Virus record (IMG/VR): IMGVR_UViG_3300034374_006526 | Coordinates: 1 to 38,540 of that record | Source: a virus | DNA: 38,540 nt | Direction: 5' to 3' (one strand) | Shown here: one piece after another, positions 3,070-31,257 of the stretch | Layout of the letters: the number at the start of each line of letters is the position of its first letter | Position numbering within the stretch: the stretch's first letter is position 1 | The notes under the pieces: generated by a model | Seen by the model: the letters and a program-made list of their open reading frames with translations, nothing else | What the model was told of the DNA's origin: nothing | Database searches by the model: none | Program-made: the position numbers and the translations under genes

Positions 3070-5919
3070 ATGGCATCAACAGACAGAATTTTTGTAAGTC
3101 CAGGTGTATTCACATCAGAGAAGGACTTAACATTTGTTACGAGACAAGTCGGTGTTACAACGTTGGGATTGTTGGGAGAAACTCCTAAAGGACCTGCGTT
3201 TGAACCCGTATTTATCTCTAACTACGATGAGTTTATTAGTTACTTTGGTGGACTTAACACAGAAAAGTTTAAGGGAACAGGTTACCAAAAGTACGAACTA
3301 AACTATATCGCCAAATCATTTTTAACTCAAACTAATCAACTATACGTAAGTAGGATTTTGGGTTATTCGGGGTATAAAGCGGGTGATGCATGGTCAATCA
3401 CATTAGACTCCGCAGAGGATCCTGACACAGTAGGAAGTGCGGGAACGGCAACTTATACAGGTGGGACACAACCACTTTTAACCTACACCGCAGAAACAAC
3501 GGGAGCACCAGTCTCTTTAACTTGGGCAGACGCAAATTTAGAAGCGTTATACAATGACGGACAATTTTCATTATCGACATTAGGACTATTAGACGTAGGA
3601 CAAGTTATTTCTGAGTCCGATCCAGTATATGTTAAAACAAATTGTGACTTTAGTGGGGCAACTTTTGATATGGAAGTAACTGCAACAGGAACAAGTGGAA
3701 GTTATGTAACTGGTACTACAAGTGGTACGGTTGTTAGTTATACCGCAACTTGTTTAACAGACATAGATGGTAGTGTAATTGCAACTTTGAGATCGAGAGG
3801 TACTTATAACGCAGATGAGGAGTTAGTATTTGAAGTTACTGGTAATTCAGCGACAATGAGTAATACTACAAGTATTGCGAGTAACGCATTAGCATCGTTT
3901 ACTATCGGTGGTACCGCAACAAACGGTAACACATTTAGTTATGATGTATCTATGGACAGAACTAAAAAGAATTATTTACCTAGAGTATTCGGTTCTTCTA
4001 CACAAGATAAAGAAACTGAATTATGGGTTGAGGAAATATATGAGAATGTGTTAGTAGATTTAATCGCTAAAGATCAAGTTAGAGGTTTGGATGTAACTTT
4101 CAACACTATTAGTGGAGATTCAACTAATAATTTAAATAATTATCAAGAACAATGGAAATCAGCGGCTTCACCTTGGGTACTTTCAGAACTAATGGGTACA
4201 GGATCAGGTGCAACTTTACAAAGACTATTTAGATTCATTACAATATCTGATGGTAACGCAGCGAATGAAGACGTTAAATTCTCAATTGTTAATATCAGAC
4301 CTGACAATAGAACATTTGACTTATTAGTTAGAAGTTTTAATGATACTGACGCTAACCCATCAGTAGTCGAAAAATTCTCAAATATTAGTTTAGATGTAAA
4401 CGCAACAGGATTTATCGGAAGAAAGATCGGTACTTCTAACGGAGAATATCCATTGAGAAGTAGGTATATTATGGTTGAGTTGTATGACGAAAACGACCCT
4501 AGTTTAGCAAGTAGAGTACCTGCAGGATTCGAAGGGGTATTAAATAGAACATACATTGGAAGTAGAACTTCTCTACCACCAAAAATTGAATATAAAACAC
4601 AATACCCAACGTCATTGACTACCGCACAATTAAGAAGAACTTATTTAGGTTTAAATTCTGAAATTGGTGTAGATCAAGACTTCTTTGATTACAAAGGTAA
4701 AAACGCAGTTAACAACGGTGTATATACAGGAAAAACAGATGGTTTCCACTTAGACGTAAACGCAAATGGTGCGGAAGTTAATTTAGGAGATGATAGTTAC
4801 GTCCCAACATTACAAGTTGGTGTATCTGCTTTTACTAACGATGCTAGTTTAGTGGGTGGACCTTATGAAAGATTATCAGCTAGAAAATTCACATTCACAT
4901 CATTCGGTGGATGGGACGGATGGGATGAATACAGACTACAAAGAACTAATACGGATAATTATACTAAAACTGGTTCTAAAGGTTCTCTTGGAGAATCAAA
5001 AGGAGTATTCTCATCATTTGTAACAACTGAAGGTGATCAAGGAATCACTTCTGACTATTACGCATACTTAAACGGTATTTACACTTATAACAATCCTGAA
5101 GCGGTTAACATTAACGTATTCGCAACACCAGGTATTGATTTAAGAGATAATATTGGATTAGTAGATAACGCAGTAGATATGGTAGAAGTTGATAGAGCGG
5201 ATTCACTTTATGTTATTACAACACCTGATACTGATAGTGATGGACAAGCAATTACACCAGACGAAGCGGTAGACATTATAGAAGATTCGGCAATCGATTC
5301 TAACTACTCCGCTACATACTGGCCGTGGTTACAGATGAATGATACAGAAAATAACAGATATGTATGGTTACCACCTACAGTAGAGGTTATGAGAAACATC
5401 GCACTTACCGATAATGTAGCGTTCCCTTGGTTCGCAGCAGCAGGTTTAAATAGAGGTACAACAAACGCAATCAAAGCGAGAGTGAAACTTAAATTAGATG
5501 ATAGAGATGACTTATACGAAGGAAGAATTAACCCAATGGCGACATTCTCAGATGTAGGAGTTGTAATCTTCGGTAATAAAACTTTACAAGTTAAAGAAAC
5601 CGCACTTAACAGAATCAATGTTAGAAGATTGTTGTTACAAGCGAGAAAACTTATTTCAGCGGTGTCAATCAGATTGTTATTCGAACAAAATGATGATGTT
5701 GTAAGAAATCAGTTCTTAAGTTTGGTTAACCCAATTTTGGATAACATTAGAAAAGAGAGAGGTTTAACTGACTTTAGAGTGGTATTAGATGATACACCAG
5801 AGTCTATTGATAGAAACGAACTTAATGGTAGAATATTTATTAAACCAACAAGATCGTTAGAATTCATTTCGATTGAGTTCAACATCACTAACACTGGAGC
5901 ATCTTTCGATGATATTTAA
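3070..5919 (+). CDS. Contractile tail sheath protein (T4 gp18-like)
   Basis: A 949-residue sheath subunit. The N-terminus (FVSPGVFTSEKDLTF, then TTLGLLGETPKGPAFEPVF and a DEF-x-x-YFGG motif) is the classic start of T4-type sheath proteins. The C-terminal third has the conserved core: AVDMVEVDRADSLYVITTPD, the WPWLQMND strand, a VPPTVEVM-like segment (LPPTVEVMRNIALTD), N-P-M-A-T-F, a two-helix segment ending RKERGLTDF, and a terminal strand FISIEFNITNT that forms the sheath lattice handshake. T4 gp18 has about 660 residues. The extra length here is largely a beta-rich, Thr/Gly/Ser-rich block at about residues 110-300, probably an inserted surface domain. The gene is followed by a strong terminator, so it is a single-gene transcription unit. 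The identification is firm; the role of the insertion is not known. Confidence 0.95.
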   Translation: MASTDRIFVSPGVFTSEKDLTFVTRQVGVTTLGLLGETPKGPAFEPVFISNYDEFISYFGGLNTEKFKGTGYQKYELNYIAKSFLTQTNQLYVSRILGYSGYKAGDAWSITLDSAEDPDTVGSAGTATYTGGTQPLLTYTAETTGAPVSLTWADANLEALYNDGQFSLSTLGLLDVGQVISESDPVYVKTNCDFSGATFDMEVTATGTSGSYVTGTTSGTVVSYTATCLTDIDGSVIATLRSRGTYNADEELVFEVTGNSATMSNTTSIASNALASFTIGGTATNGNTFSYDVSMDRTKKNYLPRVFGSSTQDKETELWVEEIYENVLVDLIAKDQVRGLDVTFNTISGDSTNNLNNYQEQWKSAASPWVLSELMGTGSGATLQRLFRFITISDGNAANEDVKFSIVNIRPDNRTFDLLVRSFNDTDANPSVVEKFSNISLDVNATGFIGRKIGTSNGEYPLRSRYIMVELYDENDPSLASRVPAGFEGVLNRTYIGSRTSLPPKIEYKTQYPTSLTTAQLRRTYLGLNSEIGVDQDFFDYKGKNAVNNGVYTGKTDGFHLDVNANGAEVNLGDDSYVPTLQVGVSAFTNDASLVGGPYERLSARKFTFTSFGGWDGWDEYRLQRTNTDNYTKTGSKGSLGESKGVFSSFVTTEGDQGITSDYYAYLNGIYTYNNPEAVNINVFATPGIDLRDNIGLVDNAVDMVEVDRADSLYVITTPDTDSDGQAITPDEAVDIIEDSAIDSNYSATYWPWLQMNDTENNRYVWLPPTVEVMRNIALTDNVAFPWFAAAGLNRGTTNAIKARVKLKLDDRDDLYEGRINPMATFSDVGVVIFGNKTLQVKETALNRINVRRLLLQARKLISAVSIRLLFEQNDDVVRNQFLSLVNPILDNIRKERGLTDFRVVLDDTPESIDRNELNGRIFIKPTRSLEFISIEFNITNTGASFDDI

Positions 5920-5975: not shown

Positions 5976-6320
5976 ATGAAAAAACTAGTTAGAATCACTG
6001 AATCCGATTTACAACGAATTGTTAAAAAGGTAATCAGAGAAGAATATGAAGAAGATTTTGATCTTCCAATAGAAAAAAAATTAGATGATATCTTTTTTGG
6101 TAGTGACAGAGATAATGTTTTCACACCTCAAGGTGAGTATGGTTATTTATCACAAGAAAAAAGACTAAGTAAACAAGTTACCCCTAGACAAAGAAAAAGA
6201 AGGATACAACAAGTAGTCAACCAACTTGAAAACTATATTAGTTATTTAAAATCAAGAGTTGGGGAGGAAGATGTTTTTATAGGTAATAAAGAGTATAAAG
6301 ATGTTTGGGGTGACTATTAA
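5976..6320 (+). CDS. Small protein with N-terminal ITESDL sorting-type module
   Basis: A 114-residue basic and acidic mixed protein with no recognised domain. Residues 5-22 are an amphipathic helix module (RITESDLQRIVKKVIRE) nearly the same as in the next gene (LSESDLRRIVKRVITE), although the rest of the two proteins differ. The module ends at I20-R-E22, matching the (I/L)-x-E cleavage rule of T4-type prohead protease. Residues 60-105 are rich in Lys/Arg/Gln and probably helical. No membrane segment or signal peptide is seen. It starts right behind the sheath terminator without an obvious promoter of its own. I infer a virion-associated protein that carries a removable N-terminal targeting peptide; its own function is unknown. 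Confidence 0.65.
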   Translation: MKKLVRITESDLQRIVKKVIREEYEEDFDLPIEKKLDDIFFGSDRDNVFTPQGEYGYLSQEKRLSKQVTPRQRKRRIQQVVNQLENYISYLKSRVGEEDVFIGNKEYKDVWGDY

Positions 6321-6366
6321 TGATAATAAAAATTTCATCGTTTAATTAACTTTTTAAAAAATGATG

Positions 6367-6374
6367 ATATTTAT
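6367..6374 (+). promoter_or_regulatory. Candidate late promoter (ATATTTAT)
   Basis: ATATTTAT lies 33 bases before the start of the 151-residue tagged protein. It is followed by an AAT-repeat leader (ATAATAATAATAA) and an A-rich run before the ATG. Confidence 0.5.
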
Positions 6375-6407
6375 AAATAAATAATAATAATAATAAAAAT
6401 TAAAAAA

Positions 6408-6863
6408 ATGAAAATTAGAAAAAACGGAAAAGTAATTAATTTATCTGAGTCTGATTTAAGAAGAATCGTTAAAAGAGTTATTACTGAACAAAAGGACGAT
6501 AAGAGTTGGTGGGAGGAAATGAAACGAGATGCTAATTATATTAAAGATGATATAGTAAGAGCTTTTGGTGAAACTTCTGAAATACCTGCGAGTTTTGGTA
6601 AATTGTTTAATTATGTAACTAGTCAAGACTATTCTAAAATTATGGGAGATGCTTTTGAACAAGCCAAAAAAGATCTATATAATGACGCAAAAGATGTTTG
6701 GAATACAGTATCTGGATGGTTTAATGAGTCATATTTAGCAGAACAAGAGGGTGAAATGGGTCCAATTGCAAAATATTTTAAAAGAGTTAAAGATAAAAGA
6801 ACACTTAACAGAGTTCTTAAAAATTTAAAAAAATTCGCAGGTAAAATATTAGATAAAGAGTAA
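6408..6863 (+). CDS. Small protein with N-terminal LSESDL sorting-type module
   Basis: A 151-residue protein of no recognised family. After a basic start, residues 11-27 repeat the module seen in the preceding gene (NLSESDLRRIVKRVITE), ending I25-T-E27 before Q28, a fit to the (I/L)-x-E prohead-protease rule. The middle, about 30-105, is amphipathic helix with several Trp and Phe, and a second candidate cleavage motif, Y-L-A-E-Q, lies near residue 110. The last 35 residues are strongly basic (KYFKRVKDKRTLNRVLKNLK), compatible with nucleic-acid contact. It looks like a small internal or ejected virion protein by analogy with the T4 internal proteins. That role is inferred, not shown. The ATG is chosen because it follows a candidate late promoter and A-rich leader. 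Confidence 0.65.
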   Translation: MKIRKNGKVINLSESDLRRIVKRVITEQKDDKSWWEEMKRDANYIKDDIVRAFGETSEIPASFGKLFNYVTSQDYSKIMGDAFEQAKKDLYNDAKDVWNTVSGWFNESYLAEQEGEMGPIAKYFKRVKDKRTLNRVLKNLKKFAGKILDKE

Positions 6864-6896
6864 TTTTAGATAATATTTAATTTTTTTAATAAATTA

Positions 6897-6928
6897 TTTG
6901 GTAGATTGGTTTTTTATTCATATATTTG
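6897..6928 (+). promoter_or_regulatory. Bacteroidota-type promoter (TTTG-N20-TATATTTG)
   Basis: TTTG at 6897-6900 and TATATTTG at 6921-6928 are separated by exactly 20 bases. This fits the primary-sigma promoter consensus of Bacteroidota (-33 TTTG/TTG, -7 TAnnTTTG). The small membrane protein starts 20 bases further on. Confidence 0.7.
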
Positions 6929-6948
6929 TTTTAATAAAAATTAATAAT

Positions 6949-7251
6949 ATGAAAAGTTTAAAAGAAAAATCAGTAAAAAAAATGGGATTTATTAAAAACA
7001 CTACAATTGATATTGTTTTTGGTATTTGTTTAGTTTTGTTAGGATTTGGGGTATTCCCTAGTGATTATCAACACAACGCACCAACAATGTTTGTGTTATT
7101 TAGTTTAATTGTGTATGGATTGGGTAAAATGTTATCTAGATTTACAATTAAAACTATAGAAAGTAAAGTAGACGGTGGGAATAAATTTTTTGATTACTTA
7201 AGATTTGTCCCAATTACATTAATTTTTTTAATTATGTATATAACCGCATAA
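6949..7251 (+). CDS. Small membrane protein with its own host-type promoter
   Basis: The protein has 100 residues when started at the ATG at 6949. An upstream in-frame TTG at 6898 is rejected because it lies in the -33 box of the promoter. The N-terminus is basic (MKSLKEKSVKKMG). Two or three hydrophobic segments follow: TIDIVFGICLVLLGFGVF, a middle one around MFVLFSLIVYGLG, and a C-terminal PITLIFLIMYITA. It is therefore an inner-membrane protein with a cytoplasmic basic start. It differs from its neighbours in being bounded by a Bacteroidota-type promoter and a perfect palindromic terminator, so it forms an independent cassette inside the late tail region. That suggests early expression and a role in modifying the host membrane, for example superinfection exclusion, but no family is recognised. 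Confidence 0.7.
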   Translation: MKSLKEKSVKKMGFIKNTTIDIVFGICLVLLGFGVFPSDYQHNAPTMFVLFSLIVYGLGKMLSRFTIKTIESKVDGGNKFFDYLRFVPITLIFLIMYITA

Positions 7252-7272
7252 AAATTTAATAAATTTAATTTT

Positions 7273-7299
7273 AAAACCCATCGATCGATGGGTTTTTTT
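7273..7299 (+). terminator. Palindromic terminator
   Basis: A 24-base perfect palindrome (AAAACCCATCGA and its complement) runs directly into a T tract. It closes the small membrane-protein cassette. Confidence 0.85.
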
Positions 7300-7309
7300 A
7301 TTTATAAGA

Positions 7310-7317
7310 ATATTTAT
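7310..7317 (+). promoter_or_regulatory. Candidate late promoter (ATATTTAT), very close to start codon
   Basis: ATATTTAT ends only 5 bases before the ATG of the HAD-type gene. If it is a -10 element, the transcript would begin at or near the start codon, giving a leaderless or almost leaderless message. Confidence 0.45.
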
Positions 7318-7322
7318 AATAT

Positions 7323-8147
7323 ATGAATATTAAACTTACAGAGTCACAATATAAATTATTAAAAGAATTTAAGAAAAAGGCGTATTCATTTGATTGGGAT
7401 GATAACATATTAATTATGCCCACAAGAATACATTTGGATTATAGAATTGGTAATACGGATGCATATGTACCAGTTTCGGTTTCTACAGAACAATTTAGAA
7501 GTGTTAGACATAAGTTAGGTAATGAGTTTAGATATCTTAATAATGATATCGCACAATCATTTAAAGATTTCAGAGATTATGATGCATTTATAGAAGACAC
7601 AAAAAGAGCATTATATCAAAATAGAATTGGACCTAGTTTCCAAAAATTTAAAGAGGCGTTAATAAGTGGTAGTGACTTTTCTATAATCACCGCCAGATCA
7701 AATCCACCACAGGCGATTAAAGAAGGTATTAAAGTAATCATAAATAATGCGTTTAGTTATGTGGAAAGAAAAGAGATGGAAAAGAACCTTAATGGTTTAT
7801 CTATAGATGAATATTTAAATCTACAAGATTATCATCCAGTATCTTCATCAGAGTTCGCCAAACAATTCGGATTAGAAAGTGTGGGGACAAATCCCGAAGA
7901 AGGGAAGAAAATTGCGTTTAAAAGTTTTGTTGATAGAATTGTAAGTCAAATATCTAAAATAAAAGATGACGATGATTTTGAAGGTATTAGTGTTGGGTTT
8001 AGTGACGATGATTTAGGAAACGTAGAAGTGGTAGAAGATTTAATTAGAGATGAATTAAAAAATTTATATCCCGAAATTAATTTTATTGTTTACGATACCT
8101 CAGATCCAAAAGATACAAAAAAGAAAAGAATAATAATTAAAAAATAA
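7323..8147 (+). CDS. HAD-superfamily hydrolase-like protein with N-terminal tag
   Basis: A 274-residue protein. Residues 4-15 are the LTESQYKLLKE module shared with the 814-residue protein further on, ending L13-K-E15. HAD motif I follows at once as F-D24-W-D26-D-N (nucleophile Asp and general acid Asp). Motif II is S-I-I-T123-A-R-S, and motif IV is G-F-S-D228-D-D-L. A Lys-rich segment near residues 190-198 may provide motif III. Between motifs I and II lies a helical cap region of about 90 residues. HAD enzymes with this arrangement are phosphatases or phosphotransferases, and the substrate cannot be told from sequence. It sits between sheath and tube genes behind a candidate late promoter. 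The N-terminal module suggests that the enzyme is carried in the virion; this is inference. Confidence 0.75.
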   Translation: MNIKLTESQYKLLKEFKKKAYSFDWDDNILIMPTRIHLDYRIGNTDAYVPVSVSTEQFRSVRHKLGNEFRYLNNDIAQSFKDFRDYDAFIEDTKRALYQNRIGPSFQKFKEALISGSDFSIITARSNPPQAIKEGIKVIINNAFSYVERKEMEKNLNGLSIDEYLNLQDYHPVSSSEFAKQFGLESVGTNPEEGKKIAFKSFVDRIVSQISKIKDDDDFEGISVGFSDDDLGNVEVVEDLIRDELKNLYPEINFIVYDTSDPKDTKKKRIIIKK

Positions 8148-8164
8148 TTTTTTTTAAAAACTGA

Positions 8165-8172
8165 ATATTTAT
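8165..8172 (+). promoter_or_regulatory. Candidate late promoter (ATATTTAT) of the tail tube gene
   Basis: ATATTTAT lies 48 bases before the tail tube ATG, followed by an A-rich leader like that of the tail sheath gene. Confidence 0.5.
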
Positions 8173-8220
8173 ATAATAAATAAGATAATAACTATAACAA
8201 AGAATTAAAAAAAGAAAAAA

Positions 8221-8709
8221 ATGGCAGATTTATTAATGAGAATGCCTGTTCCTTACGAACCGTTAAGAAAGAATAGGTTTATTTTGAGATTCCCAGATGA
8301 ATTAGGGATTCAAGAATGGTGGGTTTCTACTACATCTAGACCTAAATATACGAGTCAGGAAGTGGAAATTCCATTTTTAAATACATCTACTTATGTGATT
8401 GGTAGATTTAATTGGGATTCTATTTCCGTAACATTTAGAGATCCTATCGGACCTTCCGCAACACAAGCGTTGATGGAATGGGTACGTTTACACTCAGAAT
8501 CAGTAACAGGTAGACAAGGTTACGCTGCGGGATATAAGAAAGACGTAGAATTAGAAATGTTAGACCCAACTGGTGTTGTTGTTCAGAAGTGGATTTTACA
8601 AGGTACACAATTGAATGACGCAGATTTTGGTTCATTAGACTATTCATCTTCAGATTTGGCGGATATCACTTGTACGCTCAGGTTTGATAGGGCGATAAAC
8701 GTGTTTTAG
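8221..8709 (+). CDS. Tail tube protein (T4 gp19-like)
   Basis: A 162-residue protein, almost the same length as T4 gp19 (163). It begins MADLLMRMPVPYEPLRKNRF and continues with the conserved LRFPDELGIQEWWVSTTSRP segment, a W-D-S-I-S-V-T-F-R-D-P strand, a helix around ALMEWVRLHSES, Y-A-A-G-Y-K-K-D-V-E-L-E-M-L-D-P and a C-terminal strand ADITCTLRFDRA. These are the hallmarks of the T4-type inner tube fold shared with Hcp-like tube proteins. The protein polymerises as hexameric rings inside the sheath. A terminator follows, so like the sheath it is its own transcription unit, suiting the high copy number needed. Confidence 0.95.
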   Translation: MADLLMRMPVPYEPLRKNRFILRFPDELGIQEWWVSTTSRPKYTSQEVEIPFLNTSTYVIGRFNWDSISVTFRDPIGPSATQALMEWVRLHSESVTGRQGYAAGYKKDVELEMLDPTGVVVQKWILQGTQLNDADFGSLDYSSSDLADITCTLRFDRAINVF

Positions 8710-8737
8710 GATATTAGAATATTTAATTTTATAAAAG

Positions 8738-8769
8738 AATCCTTATCATTAGTTTGGTAGGGATTTTTT
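8738..8769 (+). terminator. Rho-independent terminator after tail tube
   Basis: An 11-base stem with two G-T pairs (AATCCTTATCA with TGGTAGGGATT, loop TTAGTT) is followed by six T. Confidence 0.85.
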
Positions 8770-8780
8770 GTTATTTGTGT

Positions 8781-8788
8781 ATATTTAT
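8781..8788 (+). promoter_or_regulatory. Candidate late promoter (ATATTTAT)
   Basis: ATATTTAT lies 14 bases before the start of the MORN-repeat gene and directly after the tail tube terminator. Confidence 0.5.
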
Positions 8789-8802
8789 ATAAAAATGTCT
8801 TT

Positions 8803-10098
8803 ATGAAAAAACTTAACACATTAAACGAGGAAATAAATCGAATGAAGTCATTATTCGGTGAAAGTCGTTTATATGGTAATCTGGTGGAACAAACTGAAGA
8901 AAAAACAGGTTGTATAGAGGGTGATTGTGAAAACGGAAAAGGAACTTTGACTTTCTCTGATGGATCTAAGTATGAAGGAGAATTTAAGGATGGTTTCTCA
9001 AACGGAAAAGGAACTTATACTTGGCCTGATGGATCTAAGTTTGAAGGAGACTTTAAGCGTGGTAAACAAAACGGACAAGGAACTTTGACTTATTCTAATG
9101 GATCTAAGTTGGAAGGAGAATGGAAGAATGGTAAACGTAAGGGACAAGGAACTATTACTTATACTAATGGATCTAAGTATGTAGGAGAATTGAAGGGTGG
9201 TAAACGTAACGGAAAAGGAACTTTGACTTCGAGTGATGGAACTATAATATATGATGGTTTGTGGAAGGATGATAAAAAAGTAGAAACTGAAGAAAATACT
9301 GACACATCAAAAGAAACTGAACAAAATACTGACACATCAAAAGAAACAGAAACTGAACAAAATACTGACACATCAAAAGAAACTGAAGAAAAAACAGGTT
9401 GTATAGAGGGAGATTGTGAAAACGGAAAAGGAACTATGACTTATGATGATGGATCTAAGTATGTAGGAGAATGGAAGGATGGTAAACAAAACGGAAAAGG
9501 AACTATTACTTCGAGTAAAGGAGATAAGTATGAAGGAGAATGGAAGGATGGTATACCAAACGGAGAAGGAACTATGACTTATTCTGATGGAGAGAAGTAT
9601 GAAGGAGAATTTAAGGATGGTGATTTTAACGGAAAAGGAACTAAGACTTATTCTAATGGAGATAAGTATGAAGGAGAATGGAAGGATGATCGCAAAAACG
9701 GAAAAGGAACTTATTTCTATAATAATGGAGATAAGTATGTAGGAGGATGGAAGGATGGTAAACGTAACGGACAAGGAACTTATACTTATTCTGATGGGGA
9801 GAAGTATGAAGGAGAATTTAAGGATGATAAAAAAGTAGGTTCAGGAGATATAATTGGAGTAAACTATAGAACTGGTAAGAAAACTATTGATGGTGTTCTT
9901 AAAAAAGTAAAAGATAAAGATGGGGAGACAACATTCATAATTAAAAATAGAAAGGTACCGATACTAAATCCTCGTAGAAATGGTTTTATAGATGATGACG
10001 CAAAAAGAGGTGTTATGGATGCATTAAAAAATATAGGTATTGATACGACAAATAAAACTATTAATGTTATAAATGATAGAAAATTTACCATAAAATGA
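8803..10098 (+). CDS. MORN-repeat protein with N-terminal tag and internal duplication
   Basis: A 431-residue protein. Residues 1-29 hold the tag module (LNEEINRMKSLF, then RLYGNLVE), ending L27-V-E29. An EKTGCIEGDCENG segment with two Cys follows, then five 23-residue MORN repeats (pattern GKGT-x-T-x-x-D-G-x-K-Y-x-G-E-x-K-D-G) at about 46-160. A Thr/Glu-rich linker has three copies of NTDTSKET. The EKTGCIEGDCENG segment then repeats and six more MORN units run to about 342. A non-MORN C-terminal domain of about 90 residues ends the protein. MORN arrays form extended beta-sheets that bind lipids or proteins, and they are rare in phage. The duplicated cassette points to recent internal duplication. 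The stop codon overlaps the next start (ATGA), so the two genes are translationally coupled. I infer a virion-associated, envelope-contacting protein. Confidence 0.8.
   Translation: MKKLNTLNEEINRMKSLFGESRLYGNLVEQTEEKTGCIEGDCENGKGTLTFSDGSKYEGEFKDGFSNGKGTYTWPDGSKFEGDFKRGKQNGQGTLTYSNGSKLEGEWKNGKRKGQGTITYTNGSKYVGELKGGKRNGKGTLTSSDGTIIYDGLWKDDKKVETEENTDTSKETEQNTDTSKETETEQNTDTSKETEEKTGCIEGDCENGKGTMTYDDGSKYVGEWKDGKQNGKGTITSSKGDKYEGEWKDGIPNGEGTMTYSDGEKYEGEFKDGDFNGKGTKTYSNGDKYEGEWKDDRKNGKGTYFYNNGDKYVGGWKDGKRNGQGTYTYSDGEKYEGEFKDDKKVGSGDIIGVNYRTGKKTIDGVLKKVKDKDGETTFIIKNRKVPILNPRRNGFIDDDAKRGVMDALKNIGIDTTNKTINVINDRKFTIK
8892..8946 (+). repeat. 55-bp direct repeat, copy 1
   Basis: This copy matches 9381-9435 with a single mismatch. 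It encodes the two-Cys segment that precedes each MORN block and marks the duplicated cassette. Confidence 0.85.
9295..9386 (+). repeat. Three short linker repeats
   Basis: The unit beginning AATACTGACACATCAAAAGA occurs at 9295, 9325 and 9361. It encodes the NTDTSKET linker between the two MORN blocks. Spacing of 30 and 36 bases shows unequal copies. Confidence 0.85.
9381..9435 (+). repeat. 55-bp direct repeat, copy 2
   Basis: Near-identical to 8892-8946 (one base differs). It opens the second MORN block. Confidence 0.85.
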
Positions 10099-11054
10099 GA
10101 AAAAATATAAAAACAATAAACGAAGAGATTGATAGAATAAAATCTTTATTTACCGAAGAAAGATTATTTGGTAATCTTGTGGAACAAGAAGAAGATCCTT
10201 TCTCTAAAAAAAGTGCGAGAAAAAGTAAAAAAGTACAAACAAAAGATGATAAAGATATTGCGAAGAAAAAAGAAAAACGTGATAGTAATATAAAAAAAGA
10301 TAAAAGACAATATAGGAGAGCGTTAAGTAAATTTTGTAAAAAGGAAGTTGGTAAATTAGTTAATGTTTTTATTGAGAAAAAGAATAGGTTAGAAGTAAAA
10401 CCAAAAGGACTTAGTACGACATGGGACGAATTATTAAAAACATATAAATTAAAATATCCTACCGAAACAAAAGTTTCAAACGATGAAGGAAAAGAAAATT
10501 TTAAAACGGAGGAAAAAACTTATTCTGAAGTTCTACAAGGATGTTCAACTGCATTTAATTCTGAAGAATTAGGAATTAAGTCTTACGCAGGTAAAGCACC
10601 AAAAGACATATTACAAATATTGTTTGGGATTACTGATACTACAAAAAGTACTGATGAAAGAAATAATTTATTTATTAATTTAGAAGGTGGAGTTAAAGAA
10701 AAAGTTAAAGATGTTACAGGTATAGATACATTAAAGGCAAAATTAAAAAGTATTGGGGCATCAACATTTAAGAATGACAAAAATCTTACCGCAGGTGAAC
10801 TATTTGTTAATTTAGATAACGATGGATTTGTATATTTAATAAAACCATCTGGTAAGTTTACACCAGTAAAAGAATTGGTTGGTGGTAAATTTGGTTTGTA
10901 TGATGATTTTAAAAAAGGTATCGAAGTCGCAGTAAAAGATTTAAAAACTAAAGTAGAAAAAGAAAGTGCGGAGTTAAAAGATAAATTACCAGATAGTTTA
11001 GATGGTATTACATTTATAGATAAGAAAAAATTTAGATTACCTAAACCTCAATAG
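10095..11054 (+). CDS. Lys-rich accessory protein with RLFGNLVE-type tag
   Basis: A 319-residue protein starting in the ATGA overlap with the MORN gene. Residues 8-30 carry the tag module (INEEIDRIKSLF, then ERLFGNLVE), ending L28-V-E30 before Q, and match the MORN protein start closely while the rest is unrelated. Residues 35-75 are a very basic, probably disordered stretch of Lys/Arg/Asp. The remainder is mixed alpha/beta with two Cys (at the F-C-K-K and Q-G-C-S positions), and no domain is recognised. A high Lys content together with a removable leader fits an internal head protein that lies against DNA, as T4 internal proteins do. This function is inferred from composition only. Confidence 0.65.
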   Translation: MRKNIKTINEEIDRIKSLFTEERLFGNLVEQEEDPFSKKSARKSKKVQTKDDKDIAKKKEKRDSNIKKDKRQYRRALSKFCKKEVGKLVNVFIEKKNRLEVKPKGLSTTWDELLKTYKLKYPTETKVSNDEGKENFKTEEKTYSEVLQGCSTAFNSEELGIKSYAGKAPKDILQILFGITDTTKSTDERNNLFINLEGGVKEKVKDVTGIDTLKAKLKSIGASTFKNDKNLTAGELFVNLDNDGFVYLIKPSGKFTPVKELVGGKFGLYDDFKKGIEVAVKDLKTKVEKESAELKDKLPDSLDGITFIDKKKFRLPKPQ

Positions 11055-11055
11055 A

Positions 11056-13500
11056 ATGAAAATTATATTAACAGAATCTCAGTACAGACGTGTCTTTTTA
11101 AATGAACAATCTTCTATTGATGATATTATAGTATATTTTAATGAAGATAAGGGTACTATTGTTGAACAAACCGCAAGACTTTATAGATTGTGGGCAAATT
11201 CCACACCTGAGTTATCAAAAAAATATGGTAAGGAAAGTGAGTTTGATTTGGACGCAATTAGAAAACCTGCCAATAGTGGTACTTTCGAAAAATCTTTTTC
11301 TAAGGGAAAATCTCAGTTTGATAAAGATTATTTAATTGTCCCTAATAAATATAGTTTTAAAGATGGTGTTAATGTTATCAGTGATCAAAATAAAAGTTTA
11401 TATATAACACAAGGTGGTAGAGTTAAATATAAAGTTAATACTAAAAAAGTATTACCTGAAAAATTATCTACAGATGATTTAATTTACGATAGTAATGGTA
11501 ATATCATTAGAGGTGGTAAAAAGACTGATTATTCAGGTAAAAAGGTTTATTACACTTATTATGAAGGTACTGGGCCTGAAATAATAAAAAAAGTAAGGAA
11601 TATATACTCTTCCCCAAATACAAAAAGGGCAACTAATGTTACACAAAAAGAAAAAGAATCTGATATTGAAAAAAAATTAGTTTCTTTTAGAAATACTATA
11701 GATTATTTAGAGGACATCGGGTTAGGTGTTAGAGATCCACTTAGGGGTAGGTTAATTCCTTATAAGAAAACTGATACATTTAAATACGCAGAAGATATTC
11801 CTTCTGATAACTATTTATTTGCAAGAACCGCAATTAATGCTATGAAATATTTAGATTATCTAAAGGCAGATAAAACAATTTCAGGTGTTAAAGGAGACTC
11901 AACAGTATGTGTCACTAAATTAGGAGATAGTTGTAAAGGTGCGGCACCTTATATTACATCTAATACTTACACATTAAATTTGGCTAAAGTTTTGGGTAAT
12001 AAAAAAATAGGTAACTATCCCGCAAACTACGTTGTATATGATCATGGTTTTTATTTTGATTGGGGTAAAATTGTGGAGGATTTAGAAAATAAATTTAAAA
12101 GTGATAAATTCTCATATAAGAGTAGTTTATTTCCAGATGGTTGGTGGAATTATTTTACACAATCTTATAATATTGGATCAACGGGTAGTTTTAATAAAGT
12201 TGTAAGTTCAATTAACTCTATAAGTAGTGGTGACATACCAAAAATAAATACTCTTAATAAATATGAAGGTGGTGGTAGTTTTATCTCTTGGTTAGAGAGT
12301 TGGGATGAACAAGATTGGATAGATGCTGCGTCTATTATATTATATCTAATACCGACACCTATGACTTGGGCTGCGGCAACTGGTTTAGAGGTATTAAATG
12401 CGGGTATATCTGTAAGTAAAGGTGAATATACCGATGCTGCTTTGAGAAGTGGATTTTTAATCGGTGGGGCTTTACTTTCTAAATCACTATCAAGTAGTTA
12501 CAAAGTTAGTAAAGAAGCCGCAGAGGAGACAACTAATTTATTAACAAAAATAGATGGGGTTTCTAAAAAAGAAGCTAACGAAATTATAAAGAAAGAATAT
12601 AAAATTATGAGATCTGATTCTAAAAAGTTATTAGATGATCTTATGAATAGGTCAAATAAACAAATAAGTGAATTACAAAATTTGGCTAAGAAGAATCAAG
12701 AATTTATGAATAAGATCGATGAATATATGAAACCACCATATAATTTTAAAGAATCTAAAGCAGTTAGACGGGCAGGTGTCGATACTTGGGGTGAAAATGA
12801 ATTTCAAAAGTACTGGATACATATTGCACCTACCACAAAAACTGAAGCAATAATAATGTCTTTACTATATGGTGGTATGCAATTATATAGTTATACTAAG
12901 TTTGAAGAAAGTTTGATGGAAAAAGGAGCTTCTAAAGAAGAGGTTAAATTATCTTTATCTAAAATATTACAAGATTTTAACGTAAAAACTGAAGAGGAGG
13001 TTGAGGCAGCATTAAATAAATGTAATTCTGCATTAGAAAAATATGATAGTTATGGTTTTATAGATCCCTTACCAATATATAATAAGTTTACTAATAATTG
13101 TACACAAGATTTCGAATCTATTAGTGATAAAAATGAAAATGAAAAAATAAAAAATGGTGGAATAACTGTTAAAGGTGGTGGTCCATATGACTATAAAATA
13201 TATCCTGATATAGATTCTGAAGATTCTTGGGTTTACACAAAAGAAAAGAGTTCAGATAATTGGAGAAAGGGTAACTGCGAAACTGCAAAAATAATATTTA
13301 AAACATATTGTAAAACTAATCAAACTTTTATAGATACTAGTGAAGGACAATCTTGTATTAAAATGTTAGGTGGGGAAGAATGGGAAAAGGCTATGGCATT
13401 TATTTCTTTAAATTACGATTCTAATGATGAAATAAGTATAGAAGATATAGATGGTGCAGATGAAATAATTGATTGGGTAATTGATTTTACTTTTGAATGA
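11056..13500 (+). CDS. Large accessory protein with LTESQY tag and hydrophobic centre
   Basis: An 814-residue protein starting one base after the preceding stop. The first 17 residues are the module MKIILTESQYRRVFLNE, ending L15-N-E17 before Q; the HAD-type protein begins with the same LTESQY. Residues about 60-400 are polar and mixed. A hydrophobic, Gly/Ala-rich stretch at about 418-475 (DAASIILYLIPTPMTWAAA, later FLIGGALLSKSL) could form one or two membrane hairpins. A long helical segment at about 480-580, rich in Lys/Glu, probably forms a coiled coil. The C-terminal third contains several Cys (for example around NKCNSALEK, NNCTQDF, KGNCETAK, TYCKTNQ and QSCIKMLGG) that could form disulphides. 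No family is recognised. The combination of tag, membrane-active stretch and coiled coil resembles proteins ejected with phage DNA. That is a hypothesis. Confidence 0.65.
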   Translation: MKIILTESQYRRVFLNEQSSIDDIIVYFNEDKGTIVEQTARLYRLWANSTPELSKKYGKESEFDLDAIRKPANSGTFEKSFSKGKSQFDKDYLIVPNKYSFKDGVNVISDQNKSLYITQGGRVKYKVNTKKVLPEKLSTDDLIYDSNGNIIRGGKKTDYSGKKVYYTYYEGTGPEIIKKVRNIYSSPNTKRATNVTQKEKESDIEKKLVSFRNTIDYLEDIGLGVRDPLRGRLIPYKKTDTFKYAEDIPSDNYLFARTAINAMKYLDYLKADKTISGVKGDSTVCVTKLGDSCKGAAPYITSNTYTLNLAKVLGNKKIGNYPANYVVYDHGFYFDWGKIVEDLENKFKSDKFSYKSSLFPDGWWNYFTQSYNIGSTGSFNKVVSSINSISSGDIPKINTLNKYEGGGSFISWLESWDEQDWIDAASIILYLIPTPMTWAAATGLEVLNAGISVSKGEYTDAALRSGFLIGGALLSKSLSSSYKVSKEAAEETTNLLTKIDGVSKKEANEIIKKEYKIMRSDSKKLLDDLMNRSNKQISELQNLAKKNQEFMNKIDEYMKPPYNFKESKAVRRAGVDTWGENEFQKYWIHIAPTTKTEAIIMSLLYGGMQLYSYTKFEESLMEKGASKEEVKLSLSKILQDFNVKTEEEVEAALNKCNSALEKYDSYGFIDPLPIYNKFTNNCTQDFESISDKNENEKIKNGGITVKGGGPYDYKIYPDIDSEDSWVYTKEKSSDNWRKGNCETAKIIFKTYCKTNQTFIDTSEGQSCIKMLGGEEWEKAMAFISLNYDSNDEISIEDIDGADEIIDWVIDFTFE

Positions 13501-13501
13501 T

Positions 13502-13509
13502 ATATTTAT
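13502..13509 (+). promoter_or_regulatory. Candidate late promoter (ATATTTAT), very close to start codon
   Basis: ATATTTAT ends 5 bases before the ATG at 13515, the same tight spacing as at the HAD-type gene. It begins directly after the stop codon of the preceding gene. Confidence 0.45.
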
Positions 13510-13514
13510 ATAAT

Positions 13515-14087
13515 ATGAATAACTTAAAAGAAGAAATAGAAAGAATTAAATCTTTATTTAGTGAAGAAAGATTATATGGTAATTCAATTAATGAGACGTG
13601 TGATGACGAGGAAGAGGCTAAAACTTTTTTAATGAGTAAAGGTTATTCTGTTTATGATTTAAATAAAACGGCAGAGGAACAGAAAGAAATGTGTAAATTC
13701 CCTTCAGATAATTTAGATTGTGTAACAAAAGCCTTAAGAGATAATAACATAAAATATTCCCAGTTTGATCATGAAGGTAAATGTGTTATAACAGTATCCG
13801 ATTCATCAAGTGATGAAGATAAAACATATATGTTTGTGAATAAAAATAATGAATATGCTTATCTTAAAATTTTTAATACCCCTAAAACTTTTAAAACATT
13901 AGATGATACTGAAACTATAAAATATAAACAAGTAGAATTTAGGGGTGAGTTCATTTGTGTTGGTGAAGGTATACAAGTGGAAGGGAGTTGGGTTAGATTT
14001 TTAAAAGATGGGTCGACTAAATGGGAAGAAGTAAAAAGAGGTAAAAATCTTAAGGTTTCGTTGACGTTAACAAATATACAAAAATAA
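13515..14087 (+). CDS. Accessory protein with RLYGN-type tag
   Basis: The protein has 190 residues from the ATG at 13515. The in-frame ATG at 13497 overlaps the upstream stop and would add six residues encoded by the promoter-like octamer, so it is not favoured. Residues 4-27 are the tag module (LKEEIERIKSLF, then ERLYGNSINE), ending I25-N-E27. Next comes a Cys-containing alpha/beta region (ETCDDEEEAKTFL, EQKEMCKF, LDCVTKALRDNNI and GKCVITVSD) that looks like a small SPOR/ACT-sized fold. The C-terminal half is beta-rich (YMFVNKNNEYAYLKIF, then VRFLKDG). No family is recognised. The Cys pattern suggests possible disulphides after delivery to the periplasm, which is speculative. Confidence 0.65.
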   Translation: MNNLKEEIERIKSLFSEERLYGNSINETCDDEEEAKTFLMSKGYSVYDLNKTAEEQKEMCKFPSDNLDCVTKALRDNNIKYSQFDHEGKCVITVSDSSSDEDKTYMFVNKNNEYAYLKIFNTPKTFKTLDDTETIKYKQVEFRGEFICVGEGIQVEGSWVRFLKDGSTKWEEVKRGKNLKVSLTLTNIQK

Positions 14088-14093
14088 ATAAAA

Positions 14094-15881
14094 ATGAAAA
14101 ATTTAAATGAAGAAATAAAAAGAATGAAATCATTATTCGATGAGAGTCGTTTATATGGTAACTTAAATGAATCTACAGGTGGTAGGTTTGGTTGGTTAGA
14201 TGATTTATTTAGTGTAATAGATGACGCCCATGCAAGTAAGGGTATGAAAAAATGGAGTGAATTTTCTATGACATATAAAAATGCGGATGAATTTTTAAAT
14301 TTAGTTAAAAGAAATCCCGATTACGTAAAATTAATTGACGAAGACTTTCCTACATATATTGGTAAACTAATAGATGAAATAGCTACTACAGGTTCTGTAA
14401 CCAAAAGAACTACAGATTTATTATCTGATGGTTATATGAAATCTATTTTGGATACATTTAGAAAAAATGGTGCAGATATTACAATGGATATTAACTACAA
14501 CGGTATTAATAAAAGCATAAGTCAGCACATACAAGACGCTTGGTCAACTAGCACTCAAAAACAAATGATAGATGACCTTCAAACACAAATATTAAAAAGG
14601 ATTGAGAGTGAAGCCACTTGGCACCCAGATGTTAATGTAGAAGAAATTTTTAGTGACATTAGGAGTCAATATGGTGATGAAATAAAATTATTAAAAACAT
14701 CTGATACGTCAGATGATGTAATAACTAAAACTATTAATACTATTAACGGCATAAAATTGTCTAAAAATATAGACTATGCAAAAGTTATGAAAAAGATGGC
14801 AGATGATGCCGCAAGGATTGGTGCGAAAGAAGATATTGGTAAATTACACGCCGAATACGTAAGTATGGTTAGAGATTTAAAACGGAGGTATGCGACTAAA
14901 TTAAATAAAATTATTGGTGGTGATATAAACCCTAAAAAGGCTATATTTACACCAGATAACCCTATTGTTAGTAGATTGGCAAAAATAAAGGCTTGGGAAA
15001 ACACTAAATTAAGTGAAGATAGAATTATCAGATTATTAGGTGATTTTGATGACGATAGAATAATACCACTTTTAAATACAGAAGGTTTATCGGATTTATT
15101 TCTTTTAGGACAAGGTAAAACTTTACATGCTTTTATTAAAAAGTGGTCTGCAGGTGGTAAACTACTGAAAGATACCAAAATCAGATATAAGCTTTTTATA
15201 TATGGATACTCAATTGCCCAAAATTATCTGATTTTTTACGTACTTACGGATCTTTGGAAGATTATATGGAATAATATCCCATTTTTAGGTGGATTATCCC
15301 CAACTGAAAAACTATATGAAAATCAGGAAACTTACATTTTTAATTTTGGGGGTATGTTAAGTTCTGAGTGTTATGAATTAAAAGGATATGAAGACGGTAC
15401 TTCTGAAAAAAGTATAGAAACTAAATCTGGTGTCTATAAAGAAAAAAATGAGTATATACTATGGGTTAAAAAACAAAGAAGACAAAATGGAGATGAATGG
15501 TTTCCTGAAAACTTTTGTGAATATTTTATATGTAAAGATGGAAAACCTGTTAGTGTTAGTTGTGCGAAATATTCACCTTTGGTGGGGGAAGAAGGTACAT
15601 TAGGTGATAAATATGAAACAATTGATAATATTGGTAATAGCATTGAAGAAATTAAGGACTATGTTTCAGATTCATTAATTAATAATAAAATTCCAGATCA
15701 GTTTGACAATATTATGGACAGTGTAAAAGTTAAGTATGATAATCAAAAAGAAAACTTTATTGATTCTGAATTTTTTAAAAAATTAACCCCAGAACAACAA
15801 AAAAAATTGTTAGAAGCTTTAGATGAAGAAATAGAAGAAACTGCAAATACTATGACGTCAGAAGAAGCAGGTATGGACTAG
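14094..15881 (+). CDS. Accessory protein with RLYGN-type tag and one or two membrane segments
   Basis: A 595-residue protein. Residues 3-26 are the tag module (NLNEEIKRMKSLF, then SRLYGNLNE), ending L24-N-E26. Residues 40-360 are largely helical with alternating charged and hydrophobic positions. Around 363-400 lies a hydrophobic stretch (KLFIYGYSIAQNYLIFYVL, then IIWNNIPFLGG) that should span a membrane once or form a hairpin. The C-terminal part contains paired Cys (SSECYELKGY, ENFCEYFICKDG and VSCAKYS) and a terminal acidic helix with a T-P-E-Q-Q-K-K-L-L-E-A-L motif. No family is recognised. Like the 814-residue protein it joins a tag, long helices, a membrane stretch and a Cys-rich tail, so the two may act together, for example in a channel for DNA entry. 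Confidence 0.65.
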   Translation: MKNLNEEIKRMKSLFDESRLYGNLNESTGGRFGWLDDLFSVIDDAHASKGMKKWSEFSMTYKNADEFLNLVKRNPDYVKLIDEDFPTYIGKLIDEIATTGSVTKRTTDLLSDGYMKSILDTFRKNGADITMDINYNGINKSISQHIQDAWSTSTQKQMIDDLQTQILKRIESEATWHPDVNVEEIFSDIRSQYGDEIKLLKTSDTSDDVITKTINTINGIKLSKNIDYAKVMKKMADDAARIGAKEDIGKLHAEYVSMVRDLKRRYATKLNKIIGGDINPKKAIFTPDNPIVSRLAKIKAWENTKLSEDRIIRLLGDFDDDRIIPLLNTEGLSDLFLLGQGKTLHAFIKKWSAGGKLLKDTKIRYKLFIYGYSIAQNYLIFYVLTDLWKIIWNNIPFLGGLSPTEKLYENQETYIFNFGGMLSSECYELKGYEDGTSEKSIETKSGVYKEKNEYILWVKKQRRQNGDEWFPENFCEYFICKDGKPVSVSCAKYSPLVGEEGTLGDKYETIDNIGNSIEEIKDYVSDSLINNKIPDQFDNIMDSVKVKYDNQKENFIDSEFFKKLTPEQQKKLLEALDEEIEETANTMTSEEAGMD

Positions 15882-16890: not shown

Positions 16891-17595
16891 ATGAATATAA
16901 ATGAGCATAATAAACTAATTGATGAAATTATAAGTGAGATAGATTATATTTTAGAAAATAAAAGTAAAAAACCAATTAATGAGTTTATTGGTTTAATTAA
17001 GACAGGTGTACAACTATTTGGACCCAAAATAGTTAATTCTATTTTGGATGCTGGTGGTACAGAATTTTTAAAACAAAAAATTAAAAACAGTATTTCATTA
17101 AAAAATATTAATGTATCTAGAGAAATTAATGACTTATTAAACACTAGACCTTCAGTTGTTGATGTAGACTCTGAGGTTGAAAAACAAAAAAGAATATATC
17201 AAGATATTATAAATAAAACATCTGGTAATTTTTCAGATGAGTATGATAGTAGTGACACATATAGTGATATAGAATATGGGTACAGTGAAATTAAGATAAG
17301 ATTTAAAGACGATTTTAAATTGGAATTAGTTGCAGATGTTAATAAAAAATATGATTTAAATTATAAATATGGACAAAGAGATAAATTTAATGTATTGACT
17401 ACTAAAAAAACTTCTCAAGGGTACATACTCAACTTAGATAATAATGACTTACAAAGAAATGTTAGTTTGTTATTATATATAGACAATTTTAAAACTTCTG
17501 GTCAATTAAGGTGTAGTTTACAATTAACATACAGAAATGGTGCATATAATGGAAATAGAGTTTCTGGTGATATAGAAATATTAAGTTTAAGATAA
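16891..17595 (+). CDS. Unknown tail-cluster protein with helical start
   Basis: A 234-residue protein between the gp26-like gene and the tape measure. Residues 1-30 form an acidic amphipathic helix (NKLIDEIISEIDYILENK). The following K-P-I29-N-E31-F also meets the (I/L)-x-E rule, although this N-terminus belongs to neither tag family. Residues 34-60 are mildly hydrophobic (IGLIKTGVQLFGPKIVNSIL). The C-terminal half is a beta-rich domain (YSEIKIRFKDDFKLELVAD, then LLLYIDN, then RCSLQLTYRNG). No family is recognised. Its place suggests a tail-completion or chaperone function, or a further member of the putative packaged set. It has a candidate late promoter of its own. Confidence 0.6.
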   Translation: MNINEHNKLIDEIISEIDYILENKSKKPINEFIGLIKTGVQLFGPKIVNSILDAGGTEFLKQKIKNSISLKNINVSREINDLLNTRPSVVDVDSEVEKQKRIYQDIINKTSGNFSDEYDSSDTYSDIEYGYSEIKIRFKDDFKLELVADVNKKYDLNYKYGQRDKFNVLTTKKTSQGYILNLDNNDLQRNVSLLLYIDNFKTSGQLRCSLQLTYRNGAYNGNRVSGDIEILSLR

Positions 17596-30510: not shown

Positions 30511-31257
30511 ATGAGTAAGAAAAATTTATTATCCGAAGATTTAAAAAGATATAGACAGTTATTGGAATATACTTTCTATGTGCCAGAAGAAGAAAAAGAT
30601 GAAGATAATCTTTTATTTGATGGTATGTATATAACAGAACAAGACCCACCTGCGGAAGAAGAAGATCCTTTTGCAGATACTGAAGAGACACCAGAAGAAG
30701 TAGAGGATACTACTACAAACACTGAAGAAGAAACTTTAGAAGATCCATTTGGTGACGTTGAAGGTGAAACAGAGGAAGGTGCAGATACTGAGGGTGAAAC
30801 TGATCCTTTTGGTGATACTGAGGTAGAAGATGAATTCGCAACTGAAGAACCATTAGGTGGTGAAGATACCGTAGAAGTAGATGTAACAGATATTGTTGAT
30901 AAAACTGAAGAAACAAAAACTTCTGTTGATGGTGTAAGTACTAAGATGGATGATTTATTAGCTAAATTGTCGGAATTAGAATCACAAGTTTCAGGTATGG
31001 ATAACGTTATTAATAAAATCGATGACTTAGAAAAAGAAATCGAAAGACGAAATCCAACACCTGTGGAGAGGTTAGAAATGAGATCGATGGATTCATTCCC
31101 TTATAGTGTTAAATTAACTGATTATTGGAAAGATAAAGAAGGTTATGAGGCAACAGAGGAGGAAGAAGAATTCACATTAACACAAAGTGATGTTGACAAT
31201 TTTGATGAAAAAGAAATAAGGGCATCGTTTGGTTCAGAAAAAGAAGAAGAAAAATAA
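30511..31257 (+). CDS. Very acidic scaffold-like protein with DPF repeats
   Basis: A 248-residue protein with about 35% Asp and Glu. Residues 1-23 form a basic helix (NLLSEDLKRYRQLLEYTF) and a further motif M-Y-I41-T-E43-Q fits the (I/L)-x-E prohead-protease rule. The region 44-125 is acidic and low in complexity, with three copies of DPF followed by A/G-D: EEDPFADTEE, EDPFGDVEGE and TDPFGDTEVE. Residues about 130-175 form a heptad coiled coil (KMDDLLAKLSELESQ, then VINKIDDLEKEI). The C-terminal part, around SMDSFPYSVKLTDYWKDKEG, is a short conserved-looking strand region. This build, a helix, an acidic disordered stretch and a coiled coil, is that of prohead core or scaffold proteins. No known family is recognised, so the role is inferred. 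Confidence 0.6.
   Translation: MSKKNLLSEDLKRYRQLLEYTFYVPEEEKDEDNLLFDGMYITEQDPPAEEEDPFADTEETPEEVEDTTTNTEEETLEDPFGDVEGETEEGADTEGETDPFGDTEVEDEFATEEPLGGEDTVEVDVTDIVDKTEETKTSVDGVSTKMDDLLAKLSELESQVSGMDNVINKIDDLEKEIERRNPTPVERLEMRSMDSFPYSVKLTDYWKDKEGYEATEEEEEFTLTQSDVDNFDEKEIRASFGSEKEEEK

Follow-up and report, generated by a model that had tools for sequence, protein, structure and literature searches.

Eight otherwise unrelated proteins encoded by the window, that is, the whole 38,540-nucleotide stretch of viral DNA analysed here, begin with short modules that are probably (we put the probability at about 0.83) capsid-targeting propeptides akin to those of T4 but new and expanded in form, which a prohead protease removes inside the head. 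The observations behind this reading are conservation at the protein level, N-terminal position, a variably spaced (I/L)-x-E site, exchange of modules between bodies, sites kept in fusions, and a protease of the lineage together with a capsid protein carrying a matching site. The original prediction proposed the same T4-like logic of an N-terminal propeptide ending at (I/L)-x-E, which we retain, and also sorting of the cargo by two tags, which we do not.

Four of the eight open reading frames carry a type 1 module (T1) and four a type 2 module (T2), at the predicted positions (Table 1). All eight modules end at (I/L)-x-E, with the terminal tripeptides IRE, ITE, LKE, LNE, LVE, LVE, INE and LNE. 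The start L-T/S-E-S-D/Q predicted for type 1 does not fit the module at 5976, which opens with ITES. Besides the (I/L)-x-E at its end, each module has a second such tripeptide close to its start (L-T-E-S, L-N-E-E-I). Orthologs of the 5976 protein retain ...VIREEYEEDF though their extreme N-terminus is altered, T1-bearing homologs of the 6408 protein are found in contigs L255 and L246, and in the L023 homolog of the 14094 protein T2 ends with ITE↓A. Among 13 divergent homologs of the 814-aa protein (11056) nine columns are invariant, and five of these, E17 included, fall within residues 1–17. The MORN assignment of 8803–10098 is solid (Pfam MORN, E = 5e-70).

Table 1. Proposed tags and neighbouring features of the window (an arrow marks the proposed cut).
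Feature	Position	Strand	Remarks
Tail sheath protein, untagged	3070..5919	+	PHROG 23, E = 1.5e-58; 0/119 homologs tagged
T1 tag, 114-aa protein 5976–6320	5976..6041	+	proposed cut after IRE (residue 22); ITESDLQRIVKKVIRE↓E
T1 tag, 151-aa protein 6408–6863	6408..6488	+	proposed cut after ITE (residue 27); LSESDLRRIVKRVITE↓Q
T1 tag, HAD-motif protein 7323–8147	7323..7367	+	proposed cut after LKE (residue 15); LTESQYKLLKE↓F
HAD-motif body	7368..8144	+	motifs DWDDN, TARS, GFSDDD
Tail tube protein, untagged	8221..8709	+	PHROG 4542, E = 2.8e-26; 0/52 homologs tagged
T2 tag, MORN-repeat protein 8803–10098	8803..8889	+	proposed cut after LVE (residue 29); LNEEINRMKSLFGESRLYGNLVE↓Q
T2 tag, 319-aa protein 10095–11054	10095..10184	+	proposed cut after LVE (residue 30); INEEIDRIKSLFTEERLFGNLVE↓Q
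T1 tag, 814-aa protein 11056–13500	11056..11106	+	proposed cut after LNE (residue 17); LTESQYRRVFLNE↓Q
T2 tag, protein 13515–14087	13515..13595	+	proposed cut after INE (residue 27); LKEEIERIKSLFSEERLYGNSINE↓T
T2 tag, 595-aa protein 14094–15881	14094..14171	+	proposed cut after LNE (residue 26); LNEEIKRMKSLFDESRLYGNLNE↓S
N-terminal segment of 16891–17595	16891..16983	+	ends INE↓F; without T1/T2 module
T3 tag (LLSEDLKRYRQLLEYTFY + linker), acidic protein 30511–31257	30511..30639	+	proposed cut after ITE (residue 43), then Q

Two further proteins were originally described as having the tripeptide but no module. This holds for 16891, which lacks T1 and T2, but the 30511 protein does carry a separate conserved module, T3, which in 8/8 orthologs is followed by a linker that differs in length and then by (I/L)-x-E↓QDP. 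In the 16891 protein, INE↓F and the body after it are conserved in a homolog with a differing N-terminus; the homolog in L023 has INE↓V preceding the conserved body FGPKIVNS.

As had been expected, the modules are conserved at the protein level across relatives. T1 and T2 occur in related uncultured T4-like phages on 282 proteins with 106 unrelated bodies, a count based on stricter clustering, which we adopted because single linkage fused unrelated proteins into two large clusters. At a threshold of ≥10 bits, the T1 core profile matches 214/1954 N-termini versus 2/3938 internal segments of the same proteins, and the T2 core profile 108/1954 versus 9/3938; the internal matches are mostly gene fusions. 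The modules are thus short N-terminal segments common to otherwise unrelated proteins, as a T4-type capsid-targeting propeptide should be. For 21 tail, head-shell and replication proteins, not one of ~330 homologs bears a tag. A Pfam scan of 73 body families (E < 1e-4) returned only four Pfam families, each matching one member; the domains among tagged bodies include M23 peptidase and peptidoglycan-binding domains. Short tag peptides gave no tblastn match in isolate phages, their 28–30 residues being probably below the reach of tblastn, and the T2 DNA pattern had 0 matches in bacterial genomes. Our searches found no close cultured relative of the lineage, no virion proteomics for it, and no report of T1-, T2- or T3-type tags in the open-licence literature.

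The (I/L)-x-E site follows the T1 core in 92.6% of 74 body clusters (26% in equal body windows) and the T2 core in 90.9% of 35 (24%), at offsets from the core that vary between 2 and 14 residues for T1 and between 1 and 22 for T2. Formal p-values for this excess are 1e-18 to 1e-33, but they and the site counts overstate independence, because the tags descend from one another. The tag segments thereby end as predicted for gp21 substrates. Q occupies the position after the cut (P1') in 41% of tags, versus S/A in the capsid protein, so the protease specificity for the two may not be identical. Within tagged bodies (I/L)-x-E is relatively rare (observed/expected 1.03, versus 1.20 in untagged proteins and 1.23–1.29 for three of the control patterns in this comparison), and in the scaffold (I/L)-x-E followed by Q/S/A/N/G/T is enriched 2.7-fold.

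Searched directly for Peptidase_S77, the window gave no match; as it is a fragment (38.5 kb), we took this as uninformative and searched its relatives, where the gp21-like protease anticipated by the original prediction is indeed encoded. Five of the 20 related records contain a gp21-family S77 protease (E 1e-24 to 1e-27, all above the curated cut-off); the remaining 15, many of them fragments, gave no match. Three of the five protease-bearing records were examined in full, and tags are present in them too. In the records G002, G003 and G008 the protease gene adjoins the portal, scaffold and major capsid genes, and relatives are found in 440 viral stretches. Judged by sequence, the capsid propeptide of the lineage ends with L-[NT]-E↓[SA] in 28/28 distinct N-termini, similar to the LTE↓A of T4 gp23; it is the same kind of site as in the tags.

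The 7323 protein was originally called a HAD-type enzyme. The motifs DWDDN, TARS and SDDD are present, but Pfam gave no match, sequence search against the PDB none below E = 0.4, and fold search only a non-significant best hit to the CTDNEP1 phosphatase (8ujm, E = 0.06); since the fold searches had no significant match, we claim the enzyme class from motifs only. Across 26 orthologs E15 is invariant and L13 nearly so, whereas LTES has eroded to LNQR or LSQY. The AF2 model places the cut between a low-confidence tag helix (residues 7–15) and the first strand (18–24). In orthologs from huge phages T1 is replaced with the tags MIKKFNQFLEN and MDILRFDQFIRES, which resemble MKTYQEFIAEA of T4 ipII/ipIII.

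Tags are also exchanged on other bodies. Two paralogs on contig L014, 68% identical over 204 residues, carry ...KYLLFE↓QSGKRRVFQNLKRAF (T1) and ...KTLITE↓QGGKRRVFQNLKRAF (T2), and a family with ...(I/L)-x-E↓GL[KR]S(T/K)LKGIGGMF has T1 in L065 and L067 and T2 in L101 and L011; homology of differently tagged bodies begins at the cut site. Sorting by two tags is unsupported because the tags interchange, the same body carrying T1, T2 or a T4-like tag, and we dropped the idea of T1 and T2 addressing different places once these swaps were seen. Seven records have a T2-tagged protein joined to the end of an 814-aa-type protein, the internal T2 tag and site being retained. In some relatives the HAD-motif body is fused behind a HELTH zincin-like protein, with YLTE↓S or YLVE↓S between both parts; 34 sequences of this fused protein share five invariant columns, E740 among them, and its model shows residues 706–745 as an unstructured linker, with no significant match in fold search. 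Tag exchange, the tag swap on the HAD-like protein and the sites kept in fusions are all consistent with a cleaved, exchangeable label.

Could the tags act elsewhere than in the head, or at the DNA level only? Contractile injection system payload signals consist of an N-terminal leader on diverse cargo encoded near sheath and tube genes, and the tags are like them in this. The window's tagged genes lie in a tail-gene cluster, between sheath, tube and baseplate-like genes, which taken alone would suggest tail cargo and speaks against a head destination. The tags would then load the tube lumen or baseplate, with gp21 cutting elsewhere or never; we consider this improbable, as the 253-kb record G002 has its tagged genes dispersed over the entire genome, the site type matches that of the capsid propeptide and, with gp21, points to the head, and the numerous bodies of up to ~1200 aa seem ill-suited to a tube lumen. 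That the shared 5′ ends are hitch-hiking DNA, recombination joints or translation signals kept as DNA and lacking a protein function, could explain tags on so many unrelated genes, but is largely refuted and has next to no probability left: synonymous variation is free, differences are most frequent at third codon positions, and several synonymous codons are used for invariant residues. DNA-level conservation of the tags was dropped on this evidence.

Other explanations concern what happens to the tag and its body. The modules might be uncleaved helices docking on another phage protein, with the terminal (I/L)-x-E merely part of a conserved helix; they are predicted as helical, with low confidence, and in the common T1 subtype the end residues belong to the conserved block. 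We find this hardly plausible, since the site persists while its distance from the core varies widely, outlasts decay of the module and its loss in fusions, and marks where homology of differently tagged bodies starts. Less unlikely, though still doubtful, is a sub-case of head packaging that overlaps our main reading, namely core proteins that shape the head, are cleaved and then retained or expelled, and play no role in the host. T4 IPIII influences head assembly (PMC9026906), and the acidic, conserved 30511 family (T3) resembles a core protein; however, the tagged gene set varies greatly from relative to relative, tagged bodies are relatively poor in further sites while the scaffold is enriched in them, and some bodies have M23 peptidase and peptidoglycan-binding domains.

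The capsid-targeting sequences of T4 (IPI, IPII, IPIII and the propeptides of Alt and gp24) are likewise short N-terminal propeptides on unrelated proteins, ending at (I/L)-x-E and served by a cognate S77 protease; ipI similarly has a longer stretch ahead of its site, MKTFKEFTSTTTPVSTITE↓A. A T1 subtype with 9-residue spacing reproduces the geometry of MKTYQEFIAE (aromatic/Leu at P7, hydrophobic at P4, I/L at P3, E at P1), an agreement in geometry alone. Neither T2 nor the common T1 subtype resembles MKTYQEFI.E, which for T2 speaks against our main reading. In T4, residues 4 and 7 matter most for targeting, and residues 8 and 10 for processing; in IPIII, changing E to D abolishes cleavage (PMC9026906). 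Unlike in T4, there are at least three tag families here, mostly longer (15–43 aa) and with two (I/L)-x-E per tag; Q is favoured after the cut, body families exceed 100, and polyproteins have internal tags.

The giant phages phiKZ and SPN3US (gp245-type protease) have ejection proteins with N-terminal propeptides that a gp21-like protease cleaves after x-x-E, with extra sites inside the propeptides (PMC5694885). However, the SPN3US motif is A-x-E, and propeptides often exceed 100 aa, without a small tag set common to many bodies. The T-even proteins Ip1–Ip3, injected anti-restriction GmrSD inhibitors, also combine unrelated bodies with only a packaging leader in common, and their bodies vary between close phages (PMC12373910). 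Bodies in the present lineage are often far larger, and only MORN, M23 and peptidoglycan-binding domains are recognised among them.

We propose that tagged proteins are synthesised late and that the tag, a short basic start followed by an amphipathic helix, would attach each of them to the scaffold core while the prohead grows. The gp21-type protease would then cut after the (I/L)-x-E at the tag end, and probably also at the one near the tag start, freeing a body that may either leave the head together with the DNA during infection or remain there as an internal protein. The tags may be interchangeable cassettes spread by recombination onto more than 100 unrelated bodies, and some cargo may be made as a polyprotein in which a tag or bare cut site is kept between the parts.

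The textbook example of proteins packaged in the head and injected is the internal proteins of T4, and few of the T4 type are known because they have been recognised by one short tag. The sequences suggest that a large uncultured T4-like lineage loads a wide range of proteins into its head and frees them there by cutting. Tentatively, a few mutually replaceable labels and a protease-cut code may load tens of different proteins into a single head, some of them self-separating polyproteins, as a delivered arsenal far exceeding the handful in T4. If the tags work as proposed, the packaged cargo of any phage in this widespread lineage would be readable from sequence, the >100 unrelated and almost entirely uncharacterised body families would become candidate early host take-over or anti-defence proteins, and the tags themselves would offer new compact signals to load foreign proteins into phage heads.

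The 38,540-base viral record carries a tail and replication region of T4-like kind, and the eight ORFs with N-terminal modules (tags T1 and T2) are found in it as originally predicted, each module ending at (I/L)-x-E. A second (I/L)-x-E, absent from the original prediction, lies at the module start (L-T-E-S or L-N-E-E-I). The common sheath family matches only the C-terminal third of the tail sheath protein, which thus possesses large extra domains.

Coordinates of features in the window, related contigs (L) and related long records (G)
Feature	Location	Length	Remarks
ORF, SET-domain-like by eye only	window 2368-2772	134 aa	HGWGVFTKEKISKGE...LNYEF
Tail sheath	window 3070-5919	949 aa	
Small hydrophobic, probably membrane protein	window 6898-7251		untagged, flanked by tagged genes; start TTG or internal ATG
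Tail tube	window 8221-8709		
MORN-repeat protein	window 8803-10098		T2-tagged
Single-strand DNA-binding protein and UvsX-like recombinase	window, downstream		
Zincin-like (HELTH) and HAD-like fusion	L219 290-3286 (= G002 193636-196632); L218, L220, L221, L226, L181	~1000 aa	
Proteins with T1-like motif mid-protein	G003 133075-134367; G006 39999-41279	~430 aa	KIIITESQLSKIEE at residue 175-178

The sheath protein as query retrieved 80 relatives (72-100% identity), and T2, searched as a degenerate DNA pattern, hit 24 viral-contig stretches. The analysis also covered the whole length of six long related records (125-254 kb). Profile models of the T1 and T2 cores were scored against 1954 N-termini and 3938 internal segments from these proteins: at least 10 bits were reached in 214 N-termini versus 2 segments for T1, and in 108 versus 9 for T2. 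The 282 clear members are spread over 106 clusters of unrelated bodies (proteins minus their tags); none of ~330 homologs of 21 tail, portal, terminase, scaffold, capsid, protease and replication proteins carries a tag. Codon choice within the tags varies freely among synonyms, hence selection acts on the peptide, and in the 814-aa protein family (window 11056) five of nine invariant alignment columns fall inside the 17-residue tag, including its final Glu. The T1-like motif within two ~430-aa proteins might mark an additional internal site or have arisen by chance.

(I/L)-x-E follows the core in 92.6% of body clusters for T1 (26% in body windows) and 90.9% for T2 (24%), at a distance of 2-14 and 1-22 residues, respectively; the enrichment p-values, 1e-18 to 1e-33, overstate independence because the tags share ancestry. 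Four arguments independent of these p-values (tag swaps, HAD-like orthologs, fusions and a predicted model) show that the tag-end tripeptide behaves as a cut site would.

Two paralogs in contig L014 bear different tags, T1 (...KYLLFE↓QSGKRRVFQNLKRAF; the arrow marks the proposed cut) and T2 (...KTLITE↓QGGKRRVFQNLKRAF), and their homology begins at the site. Similarly, a family with E↓GL[KR]S(T/K)LKGIGGMF carries T1 in two contigs (L065, L067) and T2 in two others (L101, L011). Since the tags replace one another on the same body, the proposed sorting of cargo by two tags is not supported.

Relatives of the HAD-like protein (window 7323) possess a degenerate T1 core (LNQRQKSLLIE, LSQYQKNLLLE) with an invariant Glu, and its huge-phage orthologs carry a T4-like tag, MIKKFNQFLEN or MDILRFDQFIRES, comparable to MKTYQEFIAEA of T4 ipII and ipIII. 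Its tentative assignment as a HAD-type enzyme comes from motifs; fold and sequence searches gave no significant match. In the fusions with the zincin-like protein the HAD-like part is C-terminal; the joint reads YLTE↓S or YLVE↓S in several records and contains a complete internal T1 in L181. The alignment of 34 sequences has five invariant columns, one of them the joint Glu; the predicted model places this residue in an unstructured linker (residues 706-745, pLDDT <50). When the HAD-like protein is modelled by itself (mean pLDDT 79.5), the site falls between a low-confidence helix, corresponding to the tag, and the first domain strand. The 11056-type protein is fused to a T2-tagged neighbour type (such as 13515) in seven records, retaining the internal T2 and its site.

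A gp21-family protease (Pfam Peptidase_S77) was detected in 5 of 20 related records, always above the curated cut-off, and has relatives in 440 viral stretches. Its gene adjoins the portal, scaffold and capsid genes, identified from position and sequence with no separate profile search. The capsid propeptide ends in L-[NT]-E↓[SA] in 28/28 distinct sequences, like that of T4 gp23, and the scaffold shows a 2.7-fold enrichment of (I/L)-x-E with Q, S, A, N, G or T as the next residue. In contrast to the Ser or Ala of the capsid protein, P1′ is Gln in 41% of tag families; within bodies, Gln follows Glu in 3%. Gln exposed as a new N-terminus can form pyroglutamate by cyclisation, which mass spectra would reveal. 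The observed/expected ratio of (I/L)-x-E is 1.03 in tagged bodies versus 1.20 in untagged proteins (three control patterns, 1.23-1.29), a missing excess that is weak but fits exposure to the protease.

Among 73 bodies scanned, Pfam-level identities were limited to MORN repeats, M23 peptidase and peptidoglycan-binding domains. The predicted MORN protein was confirmed (Pfam E=5e-70); such repeats are known best from eukaryotes. Protein 30511, which is acidic, has a conserved tag of a third kind, T3, with (I/L)-x-E↓QDP in 8/8 orthologs; it may belong to the core instead of being injected cargo.

In T4, a 10-19 residue N-terminal sequence draws internal proteins into the prohead core and is removed by gp21 after L/I-x-E, residues 4 and 7 serving targeting and 8 and 10 processing (PMC9026906). 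This geometry recurs in the T1 subtype whose two Glu are separated by nine residues (P7 aromatic/Leu, P4 hydrophobic, P3 I/L, P1 E). The first Glu is preceded by I/L two residues upstream in 73/74 T1 and 32/35 T2 body families; such paired sites would permit cutting of the propeptide into small pieces, as suggested for long SPN3US propeptides (PMC5694885).

We found no earlier account of T1, T2 or T3 in the open-access literature searched. T4 already provides the principle; what is new here is that there are separate tag families, a very large body set, tag exchange on one body, pairs of sites, and tags placed inside polyproteins. Tag, site, lineage protease and exchangeability are shown here; a tagged protein would then dock on the scaffold through its tag, be cleaved, reside in the head and be ejected. 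In this lineage, T1, T2 and T3 are inferred to play the role of the T4 tag.
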